64,000 bases of DNA, from NCBI GenBank assembly GCA_026874595.1, contig CM049306.1, positions 75,267,642 to 75,331,641 of the forward strand, written 5' to 3'. Positions 6,278 through 54,041 of this stretch are shown piece by piece. Every line of letters begins with the position of its first letter. The first letter of the stretch is position 1. The DNA is from Sipunculus nudus (Eukaryota; Annelida; Sipuncula; Golfingiida; Sipunculidae). The notes under the pieces are model-generated. The model ran no database searches. It was not told the DNA's origin and worked only from the letters and a program-made list of their open reading frames with translations. Made by a program: the position numbers and the translations under genes.

Positions 6278-6680
6278 GGGGGTGTAACAATGCATCGAAG
6301 AATTGATGCATTGAATTGCTAGCCCTCAATTAAATTGAGATTGATTATTAACATCTGAATTGATTCATTTCCATTATTATTTTTTTTGCATGTACCATTC
6401 TGAAGCCCTGTATTCACTTATCAAATCTGACAGAGCAGTTTGCGGTGACGAAGTTCTGTACCATGTATGTGCCCTAAATATGCTTTTCTGGTAAATGTTT
6501 GCTACTGGATCACTACACTTAGAAATATGAGACAGAGGGAGAGCTAAAATTTTTTCTTTTATTTAATGAAAGTTACTGACATCCATATTGCTAAACTTGC
6601 TTTTTATTTTTTTTTGTAAGTCTGATATTTACTCCTTATATAAGAATTGAATTGAAGGTAAAGAATCAATAATTGAATCA
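6278..6680 (+). mobile_element. hAT-like non-autonomous repeat, copy 2
   Basis: It begins 'GGGGTGTAACAATGCATCG' and ends near 'GGTAAAGAATCAATAATTG'. It is a diverged partner of the 587-985 repeat. The start has a short internal inverted repeat around GATGCATTGAAT. There is no coding capacity. Confidence 0.5.
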
Positions 6681-8515
6681 TTTCTATGGGCCCTCACAAT
6701 ACACAGGCCTCCTGATTAATAGAATAATAAACAAAAAATCCAAAACAGTTGAGTTGATTTGGGGACGTCTGCTGGGGCTTTGGGAAATGAGTGTATTCTC
6801 TTCAGGTGATTGGTGGAGGCGAAGAGGAAGATGTGCTGATTGGTTAAGGAGTGTTGGGAAGGGCTGGTGATGTAATTTGTCAAGTTGCCAGATGATAGAG
6901 ACTAGCTCAACATGTGCTGCACATAATTATCTTCATGACTCATACATTTATAATGATGGCACCCACATATAATTCCTTTCTAACTATCTTTTTATGGAAT
7001 CCCGCTTCCCAAGTGTTCAGGGCTGATAAACATGAAAGAATTTAACTACAGCAGACATCTTCTAAGCACCAGAGTATTGTTTATTGCTTGGCTTGAGCCA
7101 CCGTGCCTGGGGTATGTGTTTAATCAGTAGCCGTTTTTTGGTTAAATTTTGTCCTCGGGGCACAGCTGATTGGGATGCCTTGTCCTCCTACATGTTGTCA
7201 CAGGGGGTATGTCCATGTTATTATATGAAGGAAAAACAACACAGTGGCAGCTGTCAAAAATGGCCTGAGACAAAGCCAGGGCATTGCACCAGCTCCAGTC
7301 CACGATGTCACCCCTCTAGTTACAGCAGGTGCAGAAAACAAAAAATCAAACACCAAAACACAAACTCCAGAAAACCCATCAATCATTTAGTAAATTACCA
7401 GGATCTACTTCAATTAAGTGACATAGAGCATACCAGAATTCAGTCATTTCTTTTATAATTATATTTTTCTCCATTTTGATTAATGCTGCAGCCAGTAACC
7501 AGTATTTTATCAAATTGATACCATTTAATTAATTTGTCCCAAGATTTATTATTAAAAACTTAACCAAGGTCCCAGTGAAAAAAGCAGTATTGTATCTAAT
7601 TGATATGATTACATGATTCATATTTCCCAAGATTTATTATTAAACACATAGCTAGGGTCCCAATTAGAATAAACACCTTTGTCAGTATCTTGTGCTTGGC
7701 TTTTCAGATAAACCATGATTGAAATAATTAGGATGATCTAATTACTTTCAACATTTTATCAATCTTATTCCCAGAATCCTTAGGAGATAATGAATTTTTT
7801 CTTCTGCCTAAATACATATCCATTAACATTATTACCATGGCAACAGGCATAATAAGATAAAGATGGTTTAATATACAAATTATTTTGTACTGATATATGA
7901 AGTGTGAAAATTGTTAAACTGCTTGGGATAAGCACAATATAATTGAGTTGGATTAAGTAATTAAAAGTGTGTAATTAAATAAGTAATTACCTGGTAAAGG
8001 AGCTGTAAATCAAGATATGAATGAAAGGAGGTGCATTTTATAAATGGATTTAAATAATATCCCCCAAAGCTCACCTAATACAGAAAGACCTGTATATTCT
8101 GCAAATAGAAGTTATATACATTTAACATTTTTGATGATCATGTCTATATTTAAGAAAAATTTAGAAAAACTTGCATGCCTTTAGTGAGGGCTTTCATCTT
8201 TGTTTATTCTGTGATGTTAAAAATTTTTCATCAAGATTCAATGAAAGTTAAATATATAAACAATTTACTTATATTCTGAGTGGTTTCATTTTATCAGCAC
8301 TAGTTTCTAAACTCTCACAATATATTGGTACATTCAGAATTATCAGGGACTTTTCTCTTATTAACAGGCATAAACAAACATGAAGAAATGCAATATTATG
8401 AATGTGTTTATGTGTTCTGTCACTGGAAGGACCAGCATCTGGTCAGACATTTTAGTTAATCTTTAATCATCATAGGAACTTCACAATACAGGTCCATGGC
8501 TCAAACTGTAGAAGT
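6681..8515. other. Non-coding, no feature recognised
   Basis: AT-rich, CpG-poor sequence with no convincing exon on either strand. A 124-codon open frame at 7084-7458 lacks an ATG-based start and family similarity. Confidence 0.35.
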
Positions 8516-8530
8516 AGGTCACAGTGACCT
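8516..8530. promoter_or_regulatory. Perfect inverted-repeat-3 oestrogen response element (ERE)
   Basis: AGGTCACAGTGACCT is AGGTCA, three bases, then its exact reverse complement. The core GGTCACAGTGACC is the classical Xenopus vitellogenin A2 ERE. It lies about 2 kb upstream of the rhotekin start codon, in non-coding DNA. Chance expectation for 12 fixed positions in 64 kb is below 0.01. Molluscs have an oestrogen-receptor orthologue that binds such sites (established). Whether it controls rhotekin is inference. Confidence 0.55.
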
Positions 8531-10482
8531 AATTTATAGACTACCAAAACATTTGTTGGAAACCAATTACTATTTAAATACCTGCATATATTTATAATAA
8601 AAATATACATTAACCACTGTTATTAAGTGTATTCATTCTGCTCACTCATTGTGTATTGATTAATTTTTCCTATTGATTTTCAATTTTTGGCTATAAAATG
8701 TAGCTAGCTAAAAAAATAAATGGTTATGTCTGACTGACTAAAGATTTGAAGATTTTTTTAGTCAGTGTTTTATGTTAATTTTAATGCCAACTGTATGTAG
8801 ATTACCATAGTACCAGTAATTAAACTGTCATTTTGTCAACTCTGGTGTTGGTAACAGAATATTAATCTGTTATTTTGTACCCCCTGACCTCCTAGGGTAT
8901 TATATCACACCAGGATCTTTAGATTGTGGTTTCTGAGTATGCAGCCTATAGATAAAGTTGTATATCTCTGTTGGCATAATGTTTGTGCATAGCACCCTTG
9001 GTTGATAAAAGTTTGATAAGAGATTCTTATCAGAGCTCAGGGATTAGTGATTGTTCTGATTTATGTCCTGATATCTATAGCTGTGGGATAAATGTTATAC
9101 TCCATGATCCCCTGTTTGTTTATAATTGTTATCAAAACAAAGTAGTCTCTGTCAATATTATAAACAAACAAATGAAATGAGATTTTAGTAAAAAAAAAGA
9201 AATACTTTTTGCCATAGGATTTCTTAGCCAGGATAAATATGTTTTTAACCAATAGACAGTTAGTCACAACATGGGGTCTTATTGAATAATAAAATTGTTA
9301 ATATTGTTTTATGATTTGGAATGTTTATTTTAAATAGTTCTAATTTAAGAAATTTTATTAATGAATAAAAGCCATTTACTTACTCTTACATATGATCACT
9401 TATCATATTCATATTTACAATAAATCTGAAGTAATAATGATAAAAAATAGCATTTGAACAATTTTAAAAATTGATTGAGAAATTCAGGTAAACCTCCTTT
9501 GAAGGAAAACAGACTTCACTTTCATGTCAAAACAAGGAGTGAAATTTTGTCCTACTTGGGATGTAGGGGTGGCCTTCTGTCCATACAGGAAGGTAATTGT
9601 TATGGATGTTTCTGTTTTCATGATTAATAGTGACATACTGCTTTAATTATTTTTATGCCTGGGACATTTGTGACCTTACACCACAAGAGACGGGCAGTGT
9701 CCACACTAGGATCACAAAAGTTCACTGACACTGTGACTTTGTCTCAGTATACATACATATCAGTACTTTACCAGTAACTGATCTCTCTGTAGTCTGCAGC
9801 AGTGGATAGGCATAAACTGTCACAGGCCAATACAGTACTGGTATCTATTACATTGGCTTCTGTTAATATACCCCCTACTTCCATATGTACAGACATACTC
9901 CATCCCTCTATTAAAAGCCCGGGGCTTTTATCAAGAGCCCTTTTTATACAAATCTTTACCTGCCTGTGCAGGTGATATGAATAAATGATTACCTGGAAGT
10001 AACAGGTAGGCCGGGAGTATAATGTGAAGGTAAATCCTGCATTGTCACCGCTGACAGCTGACCTGGATATCAATGCTGGTATGAACAGCAGACTAGAGCA
10101 TTGCTATACAGTCAGATGGTGTCTAGCTGACAGAGGTACAGATCAAGTTATAAAGCTGACAGCACTGTGTTAGAAGAGGAAGCCTGGCAGTTATTTGTTA
10201 TCAGCAGTATGGGAGGCAGTATCATGAAATGAAAGTGTGTCAATGCTGGTGGTGTATGGGAATATATTCAAAGTGCAGAGTCAAGCACTTGCAGGAACCT
10301 TTGTTACTGGGCATGTATCAATCTGAATGGGATGTATTGGAAGTGTAGGCCTGGGACCTATGCTTTATAGGTAGTGGGCCATTTCCTACCAAACATTGAC
10401 TCATGCAAGTCCGTGAACATCCAATAATGTGGAAGGTGCATGTGTTATCCCTGTGTGTAAAATAGCGTTATTGTATATGCAC
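8531..10482. other. Region upstream of rhotekin, promoter not located
   Basis: This is the 2 kb before the in-frame stop that precedes rhotekin exon 1. I see no TATA box at a convincing position, no CpG island and no upstream coding exon. The 9660-10480 part is less AT-rich than the DNA before it and is the most likely promoter/5' UTR zone, by position only. Confidence 0.3.
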
Positions 10483-10512
10483 TGACGGGGCAGCTGGGTG
10501 CAACAGGGCATT

Positions 10513-10734
10513 ATGGAGAGTTGTTTTGGGTTCAACCTCATGCACGGTAAAACCAAGACAGATGACAGACGATGTCACTCGTTTTTGGATACCGGACAAG
10601 GTAGAACACCTCAGCAACCTCACCGCTCACTGTCACGATCTGTGTCTGAGAGCTCGGATTCGGGGCCTGAGTCCCCTATTGTTGTACAAGATATGGATAT
10701 ATTTTATTATAGACAACTGGCCAATAGTCTACAG
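10513..10734 (+). CDS. RTKN: rhotekin exon 1 (start exon, residues 1-74)
   Basis: The ATG at 10513 has A at -3 and G at +4, a good animal start context, and an in-frame TGA lies 30 bases upstream at 10483. The exon ends 'CTACAG|gtgggt' in phase 0, matching the phase-0 start of the HR1 exon. It encodes a Ser/Arg/Pro-rich stretch (residues about 34-56, including 'SRSVSESSDSGPESP') that looks like a phosphorylated disordered head, then 'YYRQLANSLQ' leading into the HR1 domain. Vertebrate rhotekins vary here through alternative first exons, so homology gives little support. The assignment rests on frame, donor site, phase and coding character. The nearest upstream AG that could act as an acceptor is at 10505, with a poor pyrimidine tract. 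Confidence 0.65.
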
Positions 10735-13700
10735 GTGGGTGAATTTCTGTGTTTTTTTTTCCTCACCAAATATATATAAAATAAAATTGATACTATATTG
10801 TTCCTAACTCTGTACATATATATACAATATTAAAACCAGTAGGTTCATTAAATAATAATAATCAGGCTAATTGCATACTTACTTTCATCATTCAATAGAC
10901 AGTGCCATCAACAGACAGTGGAATTATCCTTTAAAAAAATGATTAATTTGACCTTTTTTCAACATAAATCTCAGCTCAGTTGTTTTGGTATGATTGACCA
11001 TGCAGTCAACCTGTACATGTCACAGCAGCATCTGCATGAGATTTATTACTTTACTGACAACATTTACTTCAAGTTCTGTCTCATTAAAACTAAACTTTGG
11101 CTGACCATATGTCACTCTTATTAACACACAATGCATCTTTGGCTCAACTGTCTATAAATCTATGTTGCTATTAGTGTGGTTCAGTGGGTCTTGCAGTACA
11201 CAAGATATATCAGATTTTTAAACTGCAAAGCTGCAGTAAATTGACTATTAAATAGTCTGAGGAAAAAATTCTAATATTGGTTATACTTATTGAACTGAGT
11301 TTGGCTTAGTCCAAGACAACATTGAAGGAAATCTGAATATCAAATGTCATCACTCACAAAATTATTTATAAAATATCATATCAGGGATGATTGTAGGGGT
11401 AGATATGCAGTCTCTTAGTGCTTTCTAATTTAATGATAGGAAGGTCTGTAAAATTTATATGAATTCTCTCCCTGGTTGCAATATTATATAACCAGGGTTC
11501 ACTATATTAAATAGGAATATCACATTGTTCAGGTTAAGTCAACAACAGGCTTTATCTGTCAAAGGCACTTAAGTCTGCAAATCTGTAATAATTTCCAAGT
11601 GATGCAGGTCAAGAAAAAATTGTTTACTTTACTAGTTTTTTAATGTGGTCAGAGCCATCGATAATCAAATTCAATTGTCGCTCCAGCTTTGATCAATATG
11701 TCAATATATCATACCAGCCTTAGGTTAAATAGTGTGAAATATATTTACGTTTTAACCATACATAAGTAGACCATGACCTATTTAGCCATGCAAGCTGGCC
11801 GTGTGCTCATATGCAGATAACAACAGAGAATCATCAGCACTTTGTGTGAAAATTTAAAGGGACTTGTGTCGGCCTGGATAATACAGCAGTAATTTTCAGT
11901 TATAGATGATATAGCCCATGTGTGAAACCAGTGGGTTTTTGAGCCACAGACAGGAGTGGCAGGTTCGGTCCATGCGTTGTTGATGTAGCGTGGCCACATG
12001 ATTCACTCCCTCCCATGTGGTTTGGCACGGGAAATGTATGAAAAAGCTGATCGACACATTGTCAGAGCTGAAGGAACCGGGCTCATTCATATTCAAACAT
12101 GAAAGGGCACACACTGTTATTCTGTTGTGATAAATTTCAATTTACTGACACACTATACCTGGTTCTGTTCACAGTAATCTATGGTTCCATGTGGGTCTAT
12201 AGTACCAATATATACATGACAGGGTATATATATATACTATCTGCAAATTTTGCTTTCTACCTGAGCCCCATATTATGTTATGGTGTCTTCTTATGTATTC
12301 TGTGTAATAGGATTATATCTCCCCTCTGCTGGCAAAACATATATAGCTTTTTTTTCTTTTTCTTTTTTTTTTGCATATTAGAATAGTGCAATTTGTGTTA
12401 AATCTTACATTTTACCCTGTTATTAAATTGATTTTAGTTCTGGCAGTATAGATTTTGAGTTATTAATGTAAAATGGAAAGATCTCATTTCCAAGTTAGTT
12501 ATATTCAAATACATTGTTAACACTATACTTTAGATGTCTTAGCCATCATTTATTCATAATATTCAATCAATTAAAGGACTTTTGGCAAAGAAGCAAATTG
12601 AAATTTCAGATACATAAGATGCAGGATGGAATGTTGCTTGATTAAAATGCCAGTGATAATTTGGTCTTGATGGTTTATATTCTGGTTGTCCTCATGTTTT
12701 ATTTGTACATACATATATATGCATTATAAATATATATTAAAAAGTAAGGTTACATATGTTTTTGTCAGGATTATGCCATATTTTTAATCATAATGTAAAA
12801 TTATCATAATAATTAAAAAAAGATTATTATAATAATCGATAGGTTTAAAATTTAAGATATAACTATAATTAGTATAGCCTTTTTAGGCACAATGGGCATA
12901 GATGCTTCCAAAGAATTTCTGAAGCAAAGTCCCATGCTTATATAAATTTGTGTACACTGTTCTCTGCTACCCAGCTCTGTATTTATTAAGGACATTTTGG
13001 TATTAAACGTCTTGATAACTGACATTTGTCAGTGCACATAGCTTTGTGTATGTAACAGCATGATATACTGTGCTGTATTTATTTCTGAGACAGTACCTGT
13101 ATGAGTGTGATAGAACAGGTTGCTTTATGATGTTAATAGATTGATACTCCTCTGTATTTATCTGGGTTATCAGACTGGAACATCTTTGTGTCCCTGGCCT
13201 GACTACCTGACATTAAACTGATGTTTTGTATACACCTTCAGTCAATGTTTATGATCTTTACCACCAACAGGTGTTCTTGTGTTGTTTCAGTATCCATGGT
13301 GTTTCTGTATCTCTTTTGAAACTTTATAAGAATTAGATTTTCCTTTCATAGAGGGAACATGTACCAGAATATAATATTTGTTTTTAATTTCAAAAATATA
13401 ATATCTAGTTCTAATAATATAATAAAATATATAACATAATATAATATAACCTAGGATGGTCACTTGTTGGATCAAGTTAATTGAATCAGAACTTGTTTAA
13501 CTGGTTACTTGATATAGCAGACAGTGTTGGCCCTCACTCAAAGAGGGGTCAGGGTGCAAATCCCAGTAAAAGAAGGCTAAGTAGGTTAAATTTTCTTCCA
13601 GTTTCCTGGTTTTGGATCCAGAAGATTTAATTACCCTGCCAGGGAAGAGGTATTATGCTCTCTACTGAGCACCTCCATTATCATAATAAACAGAAGAAAC

Positions 13701-28800: not shown

Positions 28801-31800
28801 GCTAAGTGGCTACAAAAATCTTCTTCTCAAAAACCTATGGGCCAAATTCTTAAATCTCACACATTAATTATCCTTAGATGTTGATAATTCAAGTTTATTC
28901 AAATGGTTTTGATTCAATAAATTTTGGCTGAGTTATGGGAAGCTGAACTTTGCCATTTTGTTGTATTTTCCCCATATGAGTTATAAACCTACAAAACGTT
29001 TTTCGACTGATGATGATACTGAGGCCAGTTTGTTTAATATTTTGCAAGAATAATTCCCTGAATCATTCTTATAATAATTGTCCTTTATGGTTCCAAAAAA
29101 TGAATTTGGCTGAATTATAAAGATTGAATTGAGTCATTTTACCAAATATGTTAGCTGTGTGAAGCAGATACATCTAGCCTAGCACCAGTTTATCAGCATC
29201 CATTACATCATGCCTCTAGATTTAGATTTCAGGTTATCTATGGAAAATATTGACAAAAATGTTTTTAAAAGCTTTTAAAAAATGTAGATTTATGATATTA
29301 CATATCATCTGTACACTAACTCATAATTTCTCAGGAATAGCAGGAGCTACCATCCCCAAATGTTATGCAATTATCTGTCACATATCAAATGTTGATGGAT
29401 TCATCTTATTTTTGCTATCTGCATTTACTTAGATTTTACAAGGAAAAGCTTAAAAAAACTTGTAAAAGTCTTCTTCTTGTAAACAGTCCAGCCAAATTGT
29501 CCAAATTTTACAGAAATGATCCCAGAGGCGAGCCCTCTCAATTTTGTTCAAATGGTTTGTGTTGGATAAATTTTAGCAGAGTTACATAACAGGCCAAGAT
29601 TGTGTACGTTTCTTGAATAGGTTGAGAAACTGCCAACTGTTTCAGATTTGGCAACAGATCAAGAGTTCATTCAGTGCAGCCAAATATAGGTCAACAGTTC
29701 AGTCAGTGCAGCCAAGCACAAGGCATGTGATCACCTCATGGGCAGCATGTGATCATCTCATGGGTAGCATGTGATCACCTCACGAGTTCATGTGATCACC
29801 TCATGGGTGTCATGCCCCTCAGGGCTGCATATGGAGCCAATCTGTGAGCTTATGCAATTGTGTGGCTACTATTTCAGATTTGGCAATAGGCAAAAGGTCA
29901 GCCTGGATTTATTTATAGCTTTGGCAGACTGCCAACTGTTTCAGATTATGCAACAGGTCAAGAGTTCACTCAGTGCAGACAGGTACAGGTCTTAATTCAC
30001 TGTCTAGCCAGGTGCAGGTCAAGAGTTCACTCAGTGCAGTAGCCTGAGCCAGTAATTTGTCACAGTACACTCGGAGCAACAGCCTTTCTCACCTAAGTTT
30101 GATGTATTGGCCTGATATTCTGACCTGTCTATGTGTTTTTATGGCTTTCTCGTTCACAAGACAGGTGTCGCCATCTACAATGACTTTTGCAAAGTGTATT
30201 TGCCTGCTTAATTCTACAGAAGAATTTGATATATCAGCCTGAAATTGGGCATATGTGTACATATCAAATAGCTTTGTTGTATACAAGACTGGTGGTGCCA
30301 CCTACAATAATTTTTGTGTTGTGTGCACCCATGCCAGAATTTCAGCAGTGATGTTTGTGTATTGTTTCTTGTTCAAAATGTTTAGTACTTGCATTGTTCA
30401 TATATATGAAAAGTAGTGGTTCAGCACTGAAGCGTTATACCTGGTGTATATCCATATGCACAGGTTCGCATTAGGCCTGTAGGCCTTGTTAGAATTGTGA
30501 TCCCTGCAGTTTTGTCAATTAATTATAATATCTCTGCTTGCAACACACAACTTATTGCAAGAATACAGGTTTTATGTATTGGTGGTGTCTTCAACCACCT
30601 GTGTTCTTATGTTTTTATAAATAACTCTTTATAAAAAGTAAATGAGATACGGAATCTTGGTGGGAATATGGTGAAATTGATACCTCCTCCATCCCATAGG
30701 TTTTGGAATTTATCTAAAAAAATACATGGCCCATCATTTGAGCCTACTAAAAAAATTGTGGTGAACATTTTTGTACTATCCTGTAGATTGTTAAATAAAT
30801 GACATGTCATATTTTTTACTTGTTAAATATTTCAGTTTTTCATTGAAATGATTCTTGTATGTTTAAGCATTGGTTACATTTTCTTATGATAAATGAACCA
30901 TGCCTGAATTTACTTGTAGCTGGACAGATGGGAACCAGTTACCATGTAAAGCCAGGGTGTGTGTCTCAGGTAGGAATTTATTAATAATTTTTGTTAACAA
31001 AAAAAAAAACAAAAGATCACATATTGCCCATTTTAGCTCAGCTGACTATAAGTCCTCTGAGCTATAGTCGTCCGTTCGTCCGTCTGTCCGTCCGTCCGTC
31101 CGTAGATGTGGCACGTTTTGAAACTGTAAGACCTAGGAATCCAAAATTTGGCATAATGTTAGATGTCCCCAAGATCTCCTACCAAGCCGAAAACTGGGTC
31201 TTTGCGACTTTGTTCCTTTGAGAAATTAAGGAAAAACCTCAATTTTTTATTAAAAACCTATTTTCACACTTCAGGACTGCCTAATATCAAAACCACTCAT
31301 CTGTTTTTCCTCATATTTACCATAAATAATCCTCTATATAGTTTTCATGTACATGCCAGAAATTAGGTCTGTATTATATAATTTAAAAAAGTTATGGGCC
31401 CAAACATAATGCATTTCGTAAATAATCAGGAAAGAAATTTGATCACTTAACACAAAACTTGTTAAAGCTAAGCACTTTTTTTCCCGTAATATTACTTTTA
31501 TTAATCAAAATAAAATCGTATACCCAAAATTAGATCAAAATCTTTTAAAATTTTTAAAATATTAGCAAAAATAAAAAATTGGTACCTTAAATTTTGCTCA
31601 ATTTTGTCCATGGCACGTTTCTTTCCTGTAACTGCTGTGGATTTAATTTTCATGTTTTTGTTAGCATTTCAACTGTTAACACCAAAAATTTGAAACCAGT
31701 TGATCAAAAACTAGATTTTATTCAAGTTTTCAAGCACCATGTCACATATTGTTTACATCAAGCTTGTGTTACGCAGTTTGCTAGAGCTCAGCTCCTGAGC

Positions 31801-34800
31801 TTCAGCTCTAAGTTACTTAAATTTGGCATACAGTTAGATGTCTCCAAAATCCCCTATCATGCCAAGAATTTGGTCACTAGGACTTAATTCCTTCGAGATA
31901 TTAATGAAAAATTTCATTTTCCATTAAAAACCCATTGTACCACTTTAAGACTGCCTAATATCAAAACCACTGATCTGACTTTGATCATATGTAATATACA
32001 TATTTTTCTATACATTTGCTATGCACATACCAGAAATGATGTCAGTAATGGTATTTTTTTTTAAGTTATGGGCCCAAACATAATGCACTTTTTAAAAAAT
32101 CAAGAACTATATTTACTCACCTAAGATGAGAATTGCTGAAGCTGGAGACTTTTTTTCAGGAATATAACATTATTTAATCAAGATTCAATTGTTTACCCAA
32201 AATTAGATCTGAATTTTGCAAATTTTTCAAGTTATTAGCATAAATAAAAAATCAATAATTTAAATTTTGTCCAACTTTGGCAATGGCACATTTTTTCCTT
32301 GTTAGCACTGTTGATTTTATTTTCACAGCATATATACATGTAAGGATTTAATCTTTTAAAATCTGAAATTTCAAAGGAATTGATTGAAAAGAGTAGCTTT
32401 TATTCAAGTTTTCATACACCATGTCAAGTGTTGTTTACATCTAGCCTACCTAGTAGTACAGCCTTCACTTGCATTATGTAACCCACCCCAGGCAACTTGC
32501 CTTGGCTCAGCTTGGCCACTACTAGCAGGATTCCCCTTTGCCCTGCACACCCCCCCCCCCCCCCCAGATGGTGCTTTAACTAGATAAATGTTATAATTAT
32601 CTGTATTTCATTTTATTCTTGGCTATGCAATGCTACATTTTAGATTTTGTATTTACCACCAGGGTTGCAATGATTAAAGTGCACATTTAATTGTGTCCAC
32701 AAAGTGGTGTATTGCTATGAAAGTGTGGATGTTCATCAGATAAGTAATTCCTTACTTGAGAAGAGTAAAAACTTCACCAGGTGTGAAATTGACTATTAAT
32801 TCCAGTTATAAATTATAGCTTAGATTGTAATAAGCATAATGATATTTTTTGTCCCTCATTCAACCTACAGTGTGTATACTTTATTTGAAAAGATGTTTTT
32901 ATGTTACCAAATTTACAGAAGCTTATTTTATTTTGGTGAATAAGATTAAGCATGTACTGAAAACTCCAATGTGCAAAACTTTTTAATAGTGATTCAAGGA
33001 ATAATCTTGTAGATGCCATGTTGTGGCATTATTTTCTTTTAAATTCAGTTTAAGCATTTGTGATTTAAAAATAATAAAATATATGTGTATGCATTATTTG
33101 ACCCAATATGAGCTACACTCTGGATATATAATGATTGCACCTTAAAATTTTAATATTTTAACTTATATTTTCAGTGTTTTCAATACAAATTTATAAAACT
33201 TGTTAATAAAAAAAAATTAATCAGATAAAAACTATTTTAATGGAAAAAGTGGATATGCTTAAATAATAGGCTTATATATAAACTTAAATGCATTATTCCC
33301 TTGAAAGTGAAATAAAGGTATCAGTCCATTCTGTCCACTGGCCTGTCCATCTGTAAATTTTTCATATGCATCACAGTATCTCAAAACTTTTACTGTTTTT
33401 CTTCATGACAGTCTTGTCAGAGTATTAGTTTGCAATCATATATTTAGAACTTTACTATAACCAAATAGGAGAGCCTCTTTCCTCTTAGCTTCTCACATGC
33501 TTATATAAATGAAAAACATTAAAATAGAATATTTTGCATTTGCAGAAATTTCAAAGTTAAGCTGAGTGCCGTGACCCATGGGTTCCTTGTTTTAACCCTT
33601 TTATGAAATCCAGAATGACATCAATAATTATTTAACCCCTCTATTACTATGTGTTTAGAGGTAAAGATAAATAAATAACAAGTAAATCTGCAAACAGGCA
33701 AACTGAATACACAACTTTTCTGTTACACATATGGAGACTTGGTTGAAAATTATCATTGTTTGTCAGGATATTACCGGTATACACATTTAAGAACAGTGAA
33801 AACTGTGTACTTAATAGTTCTAAGTACTGGTAATATATATACAATCATTTGTTCATTGTTAAATGTGCCCTGTTTGCATCCAATTTACATTTTTACTGCA
33901 AATTACGCAATGACCAAGTTTGTGCTTGTACACATCTGGAATGTGTAACCGTACTAATACAGTTATCAGCACAGAATTACGTTTAAGCTTCCATGCCATA
34001 ATTGGTTCAAGTTCCTACTTTTGCTTTCATTGAAAGTAAAGCTGAATATATTGAAAAGTATCTACAGTTTGTACACCTTTCTGATAAGATAACAGTCTTA
34101 CATGAATTGAAATATTTATTAATACATCTTTGATCTTAACTATACTGATCAAGAGGGTGTACTTAAAGATATCAGACTTGTTTCTATTTGTCAGTGATAT
34201 GAATTGATTATTTAAAATATTTGTAATTGAGAAAAAGACACAGGTCCAAAGCTTCAACTGATATGAAAAGTTAAGTAGTGTTGTATTTATATTGCCCCCC
34301 TAATAATGATTCTTATGTATGACAGCCTAGTAAATGGTTAAATATCAAATCTTAACAACAAGGCAAGGCTGTTGGCAGATAGTTAGCTTATAAACAAACC
34401 ATATAACTCTGTCAGTGTTATGTAATTTTGGACTAAGGCCCAAGTGGAAATAAGCCAGAAACCATGCTTTCTCCAAAAAAAGGCAATTTCTGTTTTCTTT
34501 ATCATGTATAGGGGGGGGGGGGGCTGGGGTAATTTTCATCTCATGTGATGACACATATTGTGAGCAGAAAGATTCAATTCAGATAATCCACGTGAAACTG
34601 AATTAAAAATACAGATGATACAACTGTTTCAACAATCAGGTAAACATTGAATAATTAGTATGCAGACTCACAGGGCGCTTGTGCTTGTACAAACAATGAC
34701 ATGTACCTACAAATACGTACTCACTGCTCAGGTTTCCTGGCTAAATGCAATTCATCGGCAGTTTACACATTGGCTAGGAATTCAGAAAGCTCTCTGTTGA

Positions 34801-40800: not shown

Positions 40801-43800
40801 AAACTCTTATGGAAGGTAAGCAAGAACATTTAAGTATGCACTGCAAACTGACATTATCTCAATTGACCACAAGTAAATCAGTCCAATCTTCAAAAACAAA
40901 ATCAATTTATTTCATGGGATGTTTGTAGTTTATATTATGCTATTATTCCATAATAAGTTTACTGCCTAATTTTTCACAAGGTAAAGTATGCATCATAGAA
41001 TAATTACCCAAACAACATTACAGACTAGTTAGAGTAGCTGGCATTCATTTGCAGTTTTTCAATTGAAACATATCCAAAATAATGTTAAATTTCTCATGAT
41101 TTACAGGGAAAATATGAGGGAGTGGCCCCCTTAGGACACATTTGGCGTTGTTACAAGACAAAAATGGAGCAGGTCTTAAGCATGGTCACAGGAGTTGCAT
41201 GACCATAATATGGAGTGGTAGGGTAGTGCTATCAGTTATAAAATATATAACAAGTGAACTGTCTAGTGACTAACACATTCCACATTTTGTTTTGCAGATA
41301 CTTCAGCTGGACCAGAGCTTCCACTGTTTGGTCATTTCTGCTGCCGGCTTGTGGCACAGCCCTACTGTCTTGTTGACCCCACAGTCACAGGTCACCTGCA
41401 GATACAGGTCAGCATCATATCCTCATCATTTATCGAACAAGTATATTTATAATCTTAAATATGATAATATCAATTATGGATAAACAGTGTTCAGATAAAC
41501 AGCAGTCTACTGTACCACATTCTTTTGTATAAAGTGAGCAAACTTAAAGGAATACATAGACCAGATTTTTAGAAAAAATATTAAGAGATAATTAACCTCT
41601 TAAACTAAATAACTTTTTAAATGAGGGAAATATAACAGTAATAGTGATACTGTTGGAATTTAATTTCAGTCTTCCCAGCGCTGGTGTGTTCTCCGCTGTC
41701 TACAGATATCCTGCTGGGACAATGCTGAAGATGCTGACGATAATGAACCTGTCATCACCATTCCAATAACAAAGGTCAGTCTCTGGACAGGATGTGTAAA
41801 CATCTCGTGTATCTAGCTTATCATTATTTTGCACTTGAAGACCAGTTTAGTTTCATCACAAACATGACAAGGGGCTCTTTAATATAATGAAGACCGGCTA
41901 AACATTTTAATATTAATAGATAACAACTTCACACCTGTCCAGGTGAGCATTTTGTTGGTCAGGCCATGGTAATAACATGCCTTTAGAAAAATTTGAAAAT
42001 TAATAAGCAATAGTTAAGACAAAAGTTTATTTCCAGCCCTACCTACCACATATTTTATTAATAAAAACAGTTTTGTTCATTGATGGTTTAGAAACAACTG
42101 AACATTTTGTAATGTTTGGCTTTATGATTCTTGGTAAATGTAAAGATGACCAGATAAAAAGCCTGAGGCCCTGATTCAGATTAACAAACACCTTAAAAAA
42201 AGCCTGAGGCCCTGATTCAGATTAACAAACACCTTAAAAAAAGCCTGAGGCCCTGATTCAGAGTAACAAACACCTTAAAAAAGCCGTCAGGCCCTGGTTC
42301 GGAGTAACAAACTGCTTAAAAAAGCCTGAGGCCCTGATTCAGAGTAACAAACTGCTTAAAAAAAGCCTGAGGCCCTGATTCAGAGTAACAAACTGCTTAA
42401 AAAAAGCCTGAGGCCCTGATTCAGAGTAACAAACTGCTTAAAAAAGCCTGAGGCCCTGATTCAGAGTAACAAACACCTTAAAAAAGCCTGAGGCCCTAAT
42501 TCAGAGCAACAAACTGCTTAAAAAAAGCCTGAGGCCCTGATTCAGAGTAACAAACTGCTTAAAAAAAGCCTGAGGCCCTGATTCAGAGTAACAAACTTCT
42601 TAAAAAAGCCTAAGACCCTGATTCAGAGTAACAAACTGATGTCTCCCTTGATACAGAATCTACAGAATCTTAGTTGCCAACAGATGGCACTGCAGTAGCT
42701 CCTTCCAAAAATAATTTGAAATATCTCTCAATTTATGGAAAAATTAGGAAAATAACCCCCTCAGGATACACACTGCATCATTCCTGACAGTTAAAGACCA
42801 AAAACGTGCATATCTGAGACGTGATCACAGAGTTCCATGACAAGGTCCTTTGTTACTACCGTCAATTATAATATAGACGTGACCAGTCTGAGAACTTGTA
42901 TTAATTCATTATCACACACAGTTTTGGAATTCTTAATCTCTTGCATATATATTTGGGAAATGTACTTCAATATTAATTTCTTGCTGCTTCTAAAGTATAG
43001 CTTGCCTGAGGTAGCTTTAAATGTACTCAAAGCTTTTCTGTTACCTTTATTTAGAGACTGCTTAAAAGATTTACTTGGATCACATTATTTCAAAGATATG
43101 CGAATGCATGGTATCAGGGTATCTGGTTTATCAATTATAAAAGTCCTATTGCTAGGCCATTAGTGTTTACCCTATAAGATCTACTTCAATTATCTTAATA
43201 ATAATATATTAATAATACAAGTGTCAGATATATCAAATGCAGTAGCCTTTTGACTTAGGACAAATGTTGATGGTCAAGGATAGATGTTTCCTGGTCATTA
43301 TTAGATATAAAAGAATGGTTGAGTAAGGCCAAAAAAAATAAAAGGTATGGTTCTCATGCACCGCTTGCATCAATTTTAAACCCCAGCATCAAAAATTTTT
43401 ATTTTGATTTTCAATAGAAACTTACCAATTTTGAGCTGCAGCCACTCAGAAATTTCTTTGAAGAATATAGAACCATACAAATTCCTTAGTTTTCTAGTGC
43501 TTTTGCTTGTTAAGCAAAATAAATCTGTTATAATTATACTTTTCCTTAATCATTTGACATTTTGATCGAAACATACAAAAAATTAAAAATAAAAAACCGT
43601 CCACCCGCATTGATTTCTGAAAAAAAAGTGCCTGCGAACCATACCTTTTTTTTATTTTGACCTTACAATTTTTCTTTTTGTTTTCAGGACACTCAAATAA
43701 GTGAGGGTTTACAGAGCGGCACCTCCCGTGGACGCAATATACAGGTGTCCATGCATGGTTCACGGAAGCCAGAGTATATACTCACAGCTGAAACCGAGAA

Positions 43801-49065: not shown

Positions 49066-50185
49066 TTGTTTTAATTAAAATGCTTCTTTGCTGGCATTGA
49101 GATTCCAATACACTGCAATTTAAGCTTTTTTATCAATTTACCAGAATATGAGAAAAGAAATATTGAGCATACATCACACAGAGTCGGCTCTTTTATTTCA
49201 CAGACCTTTTCCACCATACCAGTGACAATCGTTGGCAACCACTGATATTATGTCTTCAGGTGCAATAGGCTGACAAAAAAAGGTCATTTTTGTTATATCT
49301 TAACAGATAAAAGGGTCATCTTTTCTTAAATGTTGAGCTTCCTTTGAGCCTCGTTCCTGTATATGATTTCACGGACAAATAGTCCAAATGCTATGTCACA
49401 GAAATAGAAAAAGAACTTATGGAAATTCTATAGTAACTTGTATTATACCATAATTCATATACTCAAAATTTGCCAAATGATATTGTAGATACATAGGTGT
49501 GATGCTTTGGCATAATATATACAAAGAGATGTAGCTAACATTGTAAAAGTTTTAAATGAACTTGTAGCAATAGGATGAAAAGTCATCTGATTGCCTTTAG
49601 CACAAACCGGGTAGTAAGGGGACATTTAACAATTTTCTGCTTTGTGGCTTTGCTTTTTACAGAATCTCGGGTAGACTGTGCCTACCATGTGCGTGGTATT
49701 TATGTATATTTATGGTAATCTTTTATACCTGCTCTAGTTGAATGTTTACGCGATGCCTCTTACGATTTCAAGAAGTGCTTCTGAAATGTTTTTTACAAAA
49801 CAAGATGTCTACATGCTGCATTATATGCAGAAACATGATAGAATATAAATGCTATAGCACTGTCATATTTGCTAGGTCAGGTTGTGTTCAACCTATGTAT
49901 ATATGCTATTGTGTATAAATTCATATTTATGAGAACAACATTAATGATAAAGTATATATGGAAAAAATAAGTTTTGTTATTTATGTGTTCAGTGTGTGGT
50001 GCATAACTTGCAAAATTGCTTTCTGGATGTCAGGTTTTTCAGTTTGTCTCTGTGTGTCAGAGGAAGAATGTGAGAGAATTATATATATAATGTGAATGCA
50101 CAACAAATCTTAAGAGCACCAGCTTCTAATATTAACTAAACATGCACCCTCTTTCCTTAAGATCTTACACGAATTCTATATAAAT
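49066..50185. other. Downstream flank, nothing recognised
   Basis: AT-rich, CpG-poor DNA between the candidate rhotekin poly(A) signal and the 3.67-kb TIR element. No exon or RNA gene was seen. Confidence 0.4.
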
Positions 50186-53100
50186 GGGCCATTTTCACAA
50201 AAAGTGACAAATAATGGTAAAGACATTTTCAAAAATTTTTTGATCATGAATTACAATATTTTTACACAGAAATAAAATATATGTCCTCACAAAATGTGTG
50301 TAGAAACAGCAAAGCTAGATTAGAAAATTCAACAGAAATGATACAAAAAATATTTTTTCAATTTTTGTCTTTGCCGTTATGACAATAATGGTAAAGACAT
50401 GAAGTTTATATTTATACCATTAAAAAGATGAAAACAATATTTAAATTTATTAAAAGTCAATCATGAGTCAGGGTAACATAATATTTTTTCAGTTAAAGAT
50501 AATTCACTAACACAAAATTAATCATGAGCTGAATAACAATATAAATTGTTTGGAATAATTAACCTTGACGTCTTTACCATTATCAGTTTAAGTCTTTACC
50601 ATTATCTCATTAACAATACAAGTTTCAGTGTCAGCAACCTTGTAGCTGTTACATGTGAAACCTTTCTACCTATATCCAGCTTGTTTTACTGAATTTTAAA
50701 AACCAAACAAAGTAAAATAGATCACCCATGGTTGTTACTCATATACAGTTTTCTCAATGTTGAAATAACATAAGTACCTGCTCTCATTGTTTTAACATAA
50801 TATATTTAAAACATTCAAATTACACAAACCTATTCTGAATGCTATTATATAAAACTTATTACATCTTAAATGAACATTAGTTTGTGTAAAATCTTTACTT
50901 TATTCTACTGGAAGTGGAATATTTTTTTCAATTTTTAGCTCAGCTGATTTTAGCATGCTGACCATAATGATGGGTCTTTGTCTGTTTTCCGGTTATCCAG
51001 CTGTCCCTCCCTTAGCAAGGCACTAGTCCTAACTTTAAGACACAGAAAATTCATGCTTGAGAGACATAAAGGTCCGGGTAAATCTCCTTGGAAACACCCA
51101 AAATAAGGAAACCGTGACATATATAATGCTAGCTAAATAGCAAAAACATGTTTTGAGCACTGTGGAAGTCAACCTTTTCTGAGGATGTGAGGCCGTTGAA
51201 CAAAAATTTTCCATTGGACAAATGGCTCCAGTTCTTCAAAATTATTACCATATATTGTAATAAAATATGGTCTGCTCACTGATAATAGAGAGTTGATGAG
51301 CTGAGTAAAATATGTGGTTCCACCTGTACTTTTTCTGTTATTCTAATTGAATTTTTCTTATATTTTTAAGACTGCTAAAGTGAAGCAAATTAAAGCAAAT
51401 TGTGCCAGTTTCTCAGCAGTGATTTCAAGTGTTTCCCCCAAAAATGTGATATGCCTATTGATTATATAGATATTCTTATCAGTTGAACAAGTGAGAGCAG
51501 CATTGTACCACCTATTTACATGCCATTTTATTTTTATTTTGAGACTTCTAAGTTATACCAGTTGTGTATTTTCCTGAGATGATGGTTCATGCATTTCCTG
51601 AAATTTTGTATGCTTAGTGATCATGGTTAGTGTAATTGGCTTAACAAAACAGATGACTAGAGGTCACTTCCAAATATTAGGCATCTATTAATTGTATTTA
51701 TCCTTGACTTTTGAGACTGCCAAATTACAGCAACTGTGTCAAATTAGTACTTTTATGTATGACACTGACAGGAAGCAGTGACATATATCAGAGTATTTGC
51801 AGGTATTCATTTTATATTAGACTATCAGACTGAAATCATGTCCATTAATCAGACATCATTCGATTAAAATTGTCCATTAATTAGAAATTATTACATCAAA
51901 TTTTTAACAAGACTGGCCTCCACCCAGGGTAAGCACTCTTAAGGCTTAATGGGATAGCTGTGCCCCAGGCCACATTCAATCGCAAACAAATCCACCTTTC
52001 GGGGTTTCCTCAGTCCTATGACCCAGCAATTCATGTGATAACACACCCAGGACCTGTAAGTGTGGTGGTCACTGGGCCTGGTTAACAGGACATAAATCAT
52101 AAATGAGATGAATCGGTGCAACCGCCCTGTTAAAGTCTTAAAATAATAGTTACATACATAGTTAATTTAGTACTTAAGAAATGAAGATGTGTATCTGCAC
52201 CAAAAATGATAAAAACAAATAAAAAACAAAAAAAGTATTTGTCAGTGTCTTGGGAACTCCAAATCCCAATTTTTTTGCCTACAATTTCAGGACACATGTC
52301 AGACTGCACTCTCATGTAATACCAAAAAGGATTGTGTAACCAAGCACATTTAATTAGGTTAAGTGCTTTACAAGTTTCTTTTGGATTACTGATTTACACT
52401 CACAGAAATTCTAACATAAAAAGTTAAATAAATGCCACCTTAACTTGTGAATTGCTCAGGGGTTTTAATCATCCATTCAGTGCATTGATTATTTTATGCA
52501 TTTTTACATCAGTTAGCTTGGTATACCTACGTAAAGAATGCAGAGTGGAGTTCTGATGAATTCTGATGTCAACAGGTTAACTTTAGAATATCAGATGTAC
52601 ACAAGGCTACATCTGAAATGTAAAAAGTGAACTTGCTTTGAATGCAGATTATAGACATAAGGCATGATCATCCCCAAGTCTGAATTGACATTCTTACTTG
52701 TTAATTCAGACAAGTAAATATTTGGTTTTACCAAAGGAATCATGGCATTTCCCCCCCCCCCCCCCCAAAAAAAAAAAACTCTCCTTTGTAAGCTTGATGT
52801 GAAGGGCTAAAACAATAAACAGTTTACAACTTCATGAGGAAATATGTCATATGACCTCTAACAGATGCATGGTATGTTTGATTATTTGGTGTTCCTTTTT
52901 TAAATAGAGGCATATTCTTGTATTATCAAATAAAATACATTTAATTTCTCTCTAAATAAACTGACACATAATATTATTATACAGGAAATACTGTGGCAAG
53001 GTTACAGCAATAAATTGTACATATTGTGAGCTCAAGCTCCGGGTCTTTGTCACACCAGTCTTTACCGTTAATACATATTCATAACAGTAAAGACAGATCA

Positions 53101-53853
53101 AGATAACGGTAAAGACACAAATATGGCCTGTAGGATATGGTTATGTACAACAGCTTGAAAAGTAGTTCCTCAACACAGCCTAAACACTATGCATATTCAA
53201 CAGTGACAGATCCTGTCATTTAACTCCTGATGATTCCATGTCTATCAATGATTACGGTAAAAACATCCAATTGTTGTGACACCCACTAACACTGTGGTTT
53301 GAAACCAACTTTTACAGTATAAAAAACACTAGCAGACTGCTTGTGGTCAGTATACCTGTCTCATGTGCTGATTCTTGTGCAGATGACATTACCTGTGAGC
53401 TTATTAAAATATTAAGTTCAAATCTCATAATTAGCATAATATGATAACGGTAAAGACAAGCACATGCATAATCTATGGTCACACAAAAAAGGACTTCCCA
53501 TTTACATGTATTTTGTAATACCATAATCATGACATGTTTCAGCACCAATTCAAGTGATATACTTAAATAACAGATATAGTCCCAGGTGGCCTCTTTACTA
53601 AAAGTAATTTTTTTCTATCTTTCAAATTGTTGTATTCAATTTTGGACATATAACGGTATGGACATTTATGTTACTAATGATTTCAAAAATCTTTTAAAAA
53701 ATGTAAATATATACCTATTTAGTTTTTTTTAGTTTCCGCATTTTAGTTTATACATGACAGAATACCAAAATTGAAAAAATGATAAATTATAATAGGTTTT
53801 AAAATGATTGACATTTTTTTACCGTTATTTGTCACATTTTGTGAAAATGGCCC
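50186..53853. mobile_element. 3.67-kb TIR element with AAAT duplication and repeated GGTAAAGAC motifs
   Basis: The left end GGGCCATTTTCACAAAAA, then GTGACAAATAATGGTAAAGA, is repeated in inverse at the right end, with 4 mismatches in about 39 positions. The flanks are AAAT on both sides (50182-50185 and 53854-53857), a perfect 4-bp target duplication. The motif ATAAYGGTAAAGACA and its inverse recur about a dozen times near both ends. No transposase-like frame is visible; the open frames at 51939, 52130 and 53312 are short and unlike known proteins. Inside lies another mollusc-type repeat head (TTTAGCTCAGCTGATTTTAG at about 50934). 4-bp duplications are known for Sola-type elements, but assignment to a superfamily is unresolved. 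Confidence 0.85.
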
Positions 53854-54041
53854 AAATATCTTGTTGGATTCAGAATTTTGCTATACATCTTTATAAATAG
53901 GAACATTAAATGTCTCAAGAAGTATAACAAGGCACTTGTTAAGCCGGGGGCATATTAGGCCGAATTTTGACATAAACAAAAAAATGAGTTTGTCCCCTTA
54001 AATGGGGGGGGGGGGGGATGAGTAAAATAAAAATTACCAAT

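Follow-up and report, generated by a model that had tools for sequence, protein, structure and literature searches.

Besides Tgf2, the hAT transposons Tol2 and Ac are further elements with subterminal repeats. In hAT elements, as far as the available text of one account goes, such repeats are bound by the transposase and have been described as "haphazardly present" (PMC4890040), while according to part of another study subterminal sites can also inhibit or restrict activity instead of being required (PMC11707139). Sola transposons are characterized in excerpts of a published survey by a DDD transposase, 4-bp duplications, variable ends, terminal inverted repeats (TIRs) of 11-1124 bp and a length of mostly 2-9 kb (PMC10741241), and the accessible part of a report on dictyostelid Sola2 elements lists AWWT duplications including ATAT and AAAT (PMC3627910). 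The element described here, which is located in a 64-kb window (the whole stretch of DNA that was analyzed), combines arrays of a 15-bp subterminal motif with a 4-bp target-site duplication (TSD).

Borders, genome copies and target duplications

The element (Table 1) had originally been predicted from inverted ends of about 38 bp that start with GGGCC and from a perfect AAAT duplication, and both features were confirmed, with 35 of 38 positions alike between the left and the right TIR. Inverted ends alone are unremarkable because the 64-kb window contains seven clusters of inverted 38-mers that agree at 32 or more of 38 positions, the element's own included. The status as an element is settled by the TSD, the motif arrays and the other copies in the genome. 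Within the 64-kb window, no second copy was found by blastn.

Table 1. Coordinates of the transposon and its constituent features within the window
Feature	Position	Strand	Basis or remark
Complete non-autonomous DNA transposon, 3,668 bp	50186..53853	.	Ends, TSD, genome copies sharing borders
Left target-site duplication AAAT	50182..50185	.	Perfect match to right flank
Right target-site duplication AAAT	53854..53857	.	Perfect match to left flank
Left terminal inverted repeat, GGGCCATTTTCAC...	50186..50223	+	Inner part overlaps outermost motif copy
Right terminal inverted repeat	53816..53853	-	Paired with the left one
Motif site L1	50211..50225	+	25 bp from left end; motif search and weight matrix
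Motif site L2	50366..50380	-	Motif search and weight matrix
Motif site L3	50385..50399	+	Motif search and weight matrix
Motif site L4	50569..50583	-	Motif search and weight matrix
Motif site L5	50591..50605	-	22 bp from L4; motif search and weight matrix
Non-coding interior, without motif site at ≤2 mismatches	50620..53050	.	Unlike L115 interior by blastn
Motif site R7	53057..53071	-	782 bp from right end; motif search and weight matrix
Motif site R6	53081..53095	+	Motif search and weight matrix
Motif site R5	53103..53117	+	22 bp from R6; motif search and weight matrix
Motif site R4	53251..53265	+	Motif search and weight matrix
Motif site R3	53444..53458	+	Motif search and weight matrix
Motif site R2	53650..53664	+	Motif search and weight matrix
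Motif site R1	53814..53828	-	25 bp from right end; motif search and weight matrix

The original prediction had proposed to search the element ends against the genome and to align at least ten full copies, and both checks bore out a bounded TIR element. The host genome searched comprises 1,426,538,692 bases in 153 contigs. With the left 100 bp as query, at least 20 closely related left ends (that of the window included) were recovered at 92-100% identity over 99-100 bp; 40 left-end matches were scored, and the counts are lower bounds. Twenty-one loci were examined, namely the window, 19 others and a longer relative termed L115, and at all of them both ends lie within three mismatches of a 40-base end sequence, so that the same borders recur. 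L115 apart, 15 of the 20 family loci measure 3.5-3.7 kb, two (L101 and L113) are shortened by deletion, and three (L097, L105 and L111) are longer owing to insertions unrelated to the element. As candidates for autonomous long copies, the latter three were thus ruled out, since they represent the 3.67-kb element plus unrelated insertions. Four extra loci (L116-L119), each with one recognizable end in the fetched stretch, were left out of the counts. Comparison of 15 copies gave a mean K2P divergence from the majority sequence of 0.011 (six of the 21 loci were omitted: three with insertions, two with large deletions, and L115), and the family is therefore young.

A perfect 4-bp duplication flanks 16 of the 21 loci and 15 of the 19 independent insertions, the second count dropping L102 and L105, whose flank is common to another copy. 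At other lengths, duplications were found in 0/19 (3 bp), 0/19 (5 bp), 0/19 (8 bp) and 6/19 (2 bp) insertions, and random re-pairing of the flanks produced 2.3 matches of 4 bp on average and never more than 7, as opposed to the 15 observed. Among the perfect duplications, ATAT occurs five times, AAAT twice, and TAAT, GTAT, AGGT, ATGC, ATAC, ATAA, GGAT and GTTA once each; the four insertions without a perfect TSD are L099, L100 (3/4 bases), L111 and L114. The duplication stands at the centre of a target profile of roughly ATATATAT, and its consensus reads ATAT.

Several further observations concern the copies and the neighborhood of the element. L119 (301-1946) carries a copy in which family positions 2577 and 837 are joined, either side of the junction being >99% identical to the majority sequence; judged by its sequence, this is a recent rearrangement. 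The insertions in L105 (3009-4902) and L111 (3004-6048) belong to a second repeat family; they occupy one and the same poly-C/poly-A tract and are 76-82% alike in their alignable parts, stretches within window 31035-32740 match them at 77-88%, and L097 (3924-7648) has a related end of this family in the opposite orientation. At 1546, 5478, 21378 and 23140, the window contains related sequence (roughly CTGCATTCTTAGGAATGCAAGCC) in opposite orientations, which is probably a dispersed repeat, and a 41-bp tandem repeat (11.9 copies, 93% match) is found at 42156-42638. Candidate exons and a 705-codon open stretch (+ strand, ending at 47755) span window 26594-47755, and the element lies about 2.4 kb past the stop codon of this open stretch. 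Scanning of six candidate + strand exons gave, in one exon each, an anillin match above the Pfam cut-off as well as HR1 and PH matches below it, a combination from which we infer a rhotekin-like gene and an animal host. Rfam (at gathering scores) and tRNA scans of the 64-kb window yielded nothing.

Motif arrays and a longer coding relative

About a dozen copies of a 15-bp motif in both orientations had been reported near the two ends, and 12 were indeed found, five on the left and seven on the right. Allowing up to two mismatches, the motif ATAAYGGTAAAGACA matches the window 13 times, i. e. 12 times in the element and once at position 376, compared with 0.66 matches on average and at most 3 in shuffles. 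A weight matrix built from the 12 element sites likewise gave 12 window matches scoring ≥14, every one inside the element. The left array extends from 25 to 405 bp from its end (all sites <420 bp) and the right array from 25 to 782 bp (all <800 bp). The two ends of the window copy are mirror-like in site position and orientation, with three pairs beyond the terminal site where 0.38 would be expected (P 0.007; P 0.014 with orientations fixed) at a tolerance of 12 bp that was picked after the sites had been seen. In most other copies, four of the five left sites read ATAACGG, and the innermost left site is ATAATGG in most copies; in the window copy, CpG decay seems to account for much of the motif's "Y".

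A look for longer copies with a transposase had also been proposed in the original prediction, and it led to a relative with a probable, apparently broken transposase gene that gave no significant profile match. This relative, L115 (C9:76100871-76110462), is a 9,592-bp element with a GTTA duplication and inverted ends that are identical over the first 41 bp, and outside the ends its interior shows no similarity to that of the window copy by blastn. Its + strand is open for 544, 227 and 258 codons, each time in a different frame, and the pieces encode QVDFSENY, HFVSDGPTTQYRN and SHGKGPADG. The aspartates of these three motifs, a triad picked by eye, are about 84 and 43 residues apart, a spacing that would possibly suit a D-D-D transposase and that we take to resemble the spacing in such enzymes. 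The frame shifts twice, between the first two pieces and then at a 19-bp tandem duplication. Hence, this copy looks damaged, with damage likely at the second frame change, but introns may contribute. The best matches of the protein pieces in Pfam (E 0.058) and NCBIfam (E 0.011) lie under the curated cut-offs and concern unrelated families, and the first two pieces gave no match in the PDB at E up to 1. L115 also carries a 45-bp tandem repeat of about 1.9 kb (6622-8548). In L116 (201-276), an element end shares 84% identity over 76 bp with the L115 right end, with only one motif site (≤2 mismatches) within 10 kb; this end possibly belongs to a third, diverged family.

The arrays of L115 and of the 3.67-kb family can be compared directly. 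Sites at the left end of L115 lie at 25+, 189-, 394-, 589-, 736-, 758- and 782+, and those of the family's majority sequence, read from its right tip inward, at 25+, 189-, 395-, 591-, 739-, 761- and 785+. Thus, all seven agree in order and orientation, with offsets of 0, 0, 1, 2, 3, 3 and 3 bp. In the alignment of these two ends, 101 of 105 motif bases are identical, compared with 411 of 720 other bases past the first 25 bp (57%), which corresponds to a Fisher P of 5e-18 with bases treated as independent and sites defined by the family. Between the opposite ends, three sites correspond (25+, 178/179- and 197/198+), of which the L115 versions of the second and third contain 3 and 2 mismatches, respectively; the family sites at 382 and 404 and the L115 sites at 219, 238 and 258 are unmatched, and identity amounts to 49/75 for motif bases and 190/403 for the remaining bases. 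As far as these alignments tell, the array is conserved whole at one end, and conservation at the other is confined to the outer sites. The layout had been interpreted as that of transposase-binding arrays, and this idea gains from the end whose array has been retained in a coding relative, as would be expected of binding sites, and does not extend in the same way to the other end with its three corresponding sites. Subterminal repeats are commonly portrayed as scattered. A seven-site array that keeps its order, orientation and distance from the tip amid changed DNA provides natural evidence that array geometry matters.

A candidate transposase and the rival explanations

The 3.67-kb copies constitute a young non-autonomous cut-and-paste family without a gene of its own, and we consider it likely that this family is mobilized by a related L115-type transposase that is predicted to bind the arrays. 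The element keeps its inverted ends of about 38 bp with their GGGCC start as well as the ordered 15-bp subterminal array, both of which the transposase would require. The enzyme, supplied by longer relatives such as the apparently damaged L115, probably binds the 15-bp sites in trans, then pairs the ends and cuts at GGGCC, before insertion into ATAT-like targets with a 4-bp stagger. The two ends would be unequal in this process, given seven sites versus five in the family. A transposase role of the L115 gene is suggested by its position and the DDD pattern discerned by eye, and an active transposase may still exist in the host animal, as 15 copies are only about 1% diverged. Counted against this explanation are the lack of a significant profile match for the L115 protein pieces, the two changes of frame in the L115 gene, the four of 19 independent insertions without a perfect TSD, the weak correspondence of the arrays at one of the two ends, and the published caution that subterminal sites may inhibit transposition (PMC11707139).

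The strongest rival, which we nevertheless regard as unlikely, holds that the family is non-autonomous but that the coding region of L115 is cargo, with the true transposase, of another superfamily, encoded in a yet unseen element. The missing profile match, the two frame changes, the long tandem repeat and the fact that L115 is the single coding relative seen would all be compatible with cargo. Yet, the gene is located within identical 41-bp ends, next to a conserved array and in an element with its own GTTA duplication, and it offers a plausible DDD triad.

Far less probable is an origin of the window element by decay of an autonomous element or gene carrier. A length of 3.67 kb is unusual for a MITE, and a larger coding relative does exist. 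However, the majority sequence of the 15 copies (3,666 bp), which diverge by about 1%, contradicts this idea, its longest stop-to-stop frame being 101 aa, and the family was therefore amplified as a non-coding element. The window copy gave no match to Pfam families in six frames at E up to 10, in agreement with the original statement that a recognizable transposase is lacking, and blastn shows no relationship between its interior and that of L115. Its longest open stretch of 100 codons was reached by 91 of 300 shuffles (mean 93, sd 17), and its 3-base periodicity is comparable to that seen over most of the window and below that of the 705-codon exon. Of the two possibilities raised initially, a new non-autonomous family or a carrier with decayed cargo, the former is thus upheld as regards its non-autonomous character and the latter abandoned, the majority sequence being non-coding.

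Similarly improbable is the notion that the motif copies are host regulatory sequences or chance repeats within a TIR element. Single copies of the 15-mer are not rare in large collections, since 85 viral-contig stretches carry it exactly (a single match per stretch among the 80 listed), and to this extent chance occurrence is conceivable. Against it, 12 of the 13 window matches fall inside the element, and seven sites keep their order, orientation and spacing where the surrounding DNA is 57% identical.

The other collections provided no relatives of the element. In viral contigs, the 29-base TIR pattern and paired motifs had 0 matches each, and a 16-base TIR pattern matched two stretches, neither with motif copies. 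Among the 87 loci from the 15-mer and 16-base TIR searches of viral contigs, one (L005) has three or more sites; its four near-matches to the 15-mer (8443-11530) were dismissed as a coincidence, as three lie in a coding repeat (DSKNNGKDKFFK) and a similar context surrounds the fourth. The TIR pattern had 0 matches in genome contigs, and the element DNA had 0 in phages. For the 227-codon piece of L115, 0 relatives were obtained from viral contigs, genome contigs, plasmids and phages; a short pattern hit eight viral-contig and 22 genome-contig stretches, none confirmed as relatives. Of four TIR and motif strings searched in the literature, two occur, in three papers that, judging by their entries, concern laying hens and pig heart cells, and six L115 peptide words had no occurrence there.

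Comparison with described superfamilies

Last among the rivals, a PIF/Harbinger-related element (ISL2EU or Pangu) whose short duplication has mutated is hardly credible, even though ISL2EU ends usually start with GG and several of the PHIS groups (Harbinger, ISL2EU, Spy, Pangu, Nuwa) use AT-rich targets, as the available part of a survey states (PMC4482050): the L115 pieces match no such Pfam family, and PHIS duplications are 2 or 3 bp long or absent, in contrast to 4 bp here. PIF/Harbinger, Pangu and ISL2EU, with their TWA, ANT and AT targets, were rejected on the duplication counts, i. e. 0/19 at 3 bp and 6/19 at 2 bp versus 15/19 at 4 bp. PiggyBac, Kolobok and Sola3 insert at TTAA. These three were likewise rejected, because TTAA occurs in 0 of the 15 perfect duplications. 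Ginger elements resemble the family in their duplications of 4-6 bp, but according to the part of the survey dealing with them they end in TG...CA (PMC10741241), unlike the GGGCC...GGCCC found here. The hAT superfamily, represented by Tgf2, shares the many short repeats near both ends, which are bound by the transposase in the available description of Tgf2 (PMC4890040). It differs in its 8-bp duplications, as opposed to 4 bp here with 0/19 at 8 bp, and the L115 pieces have no hAT match in Pfam.

Conceivably, though we have our doubts, the family stands apart from all named superfamilies, with a transposase of DDD type not known to Pfam, 4-bp ATAT-like duplications and two differing ends, one of which bears seven sites whose distances from the tip hold to within 3 bp. 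If so, its transpososome would measure the spacing of a long ordered array, and not merely recruit many loose sites.

A non-autonomous TIR family that belongs to Sola or stands near it is the placement in which we have middling confidence, Sola having been compared by its published descriptions. The 4-bp duplication, from which Sola likeness had initially been suspected, is compatible with it. In the literature searched, as far as its text was available, no account of subterminal arrays in Sola was found. The family has the Sola duplication length and broadly its duplication composition, but only seven of its 15 perfect duplications conform to the strict AWWT of dictyostelid Sola2. To the DDD transposase of Sola would correspond the candidate triad of L115, chosen by eye, with its spacing of about 84 and 43 residues. 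Should the family indeed prove to be Sola, it would offer a recently mobile animal case for study.
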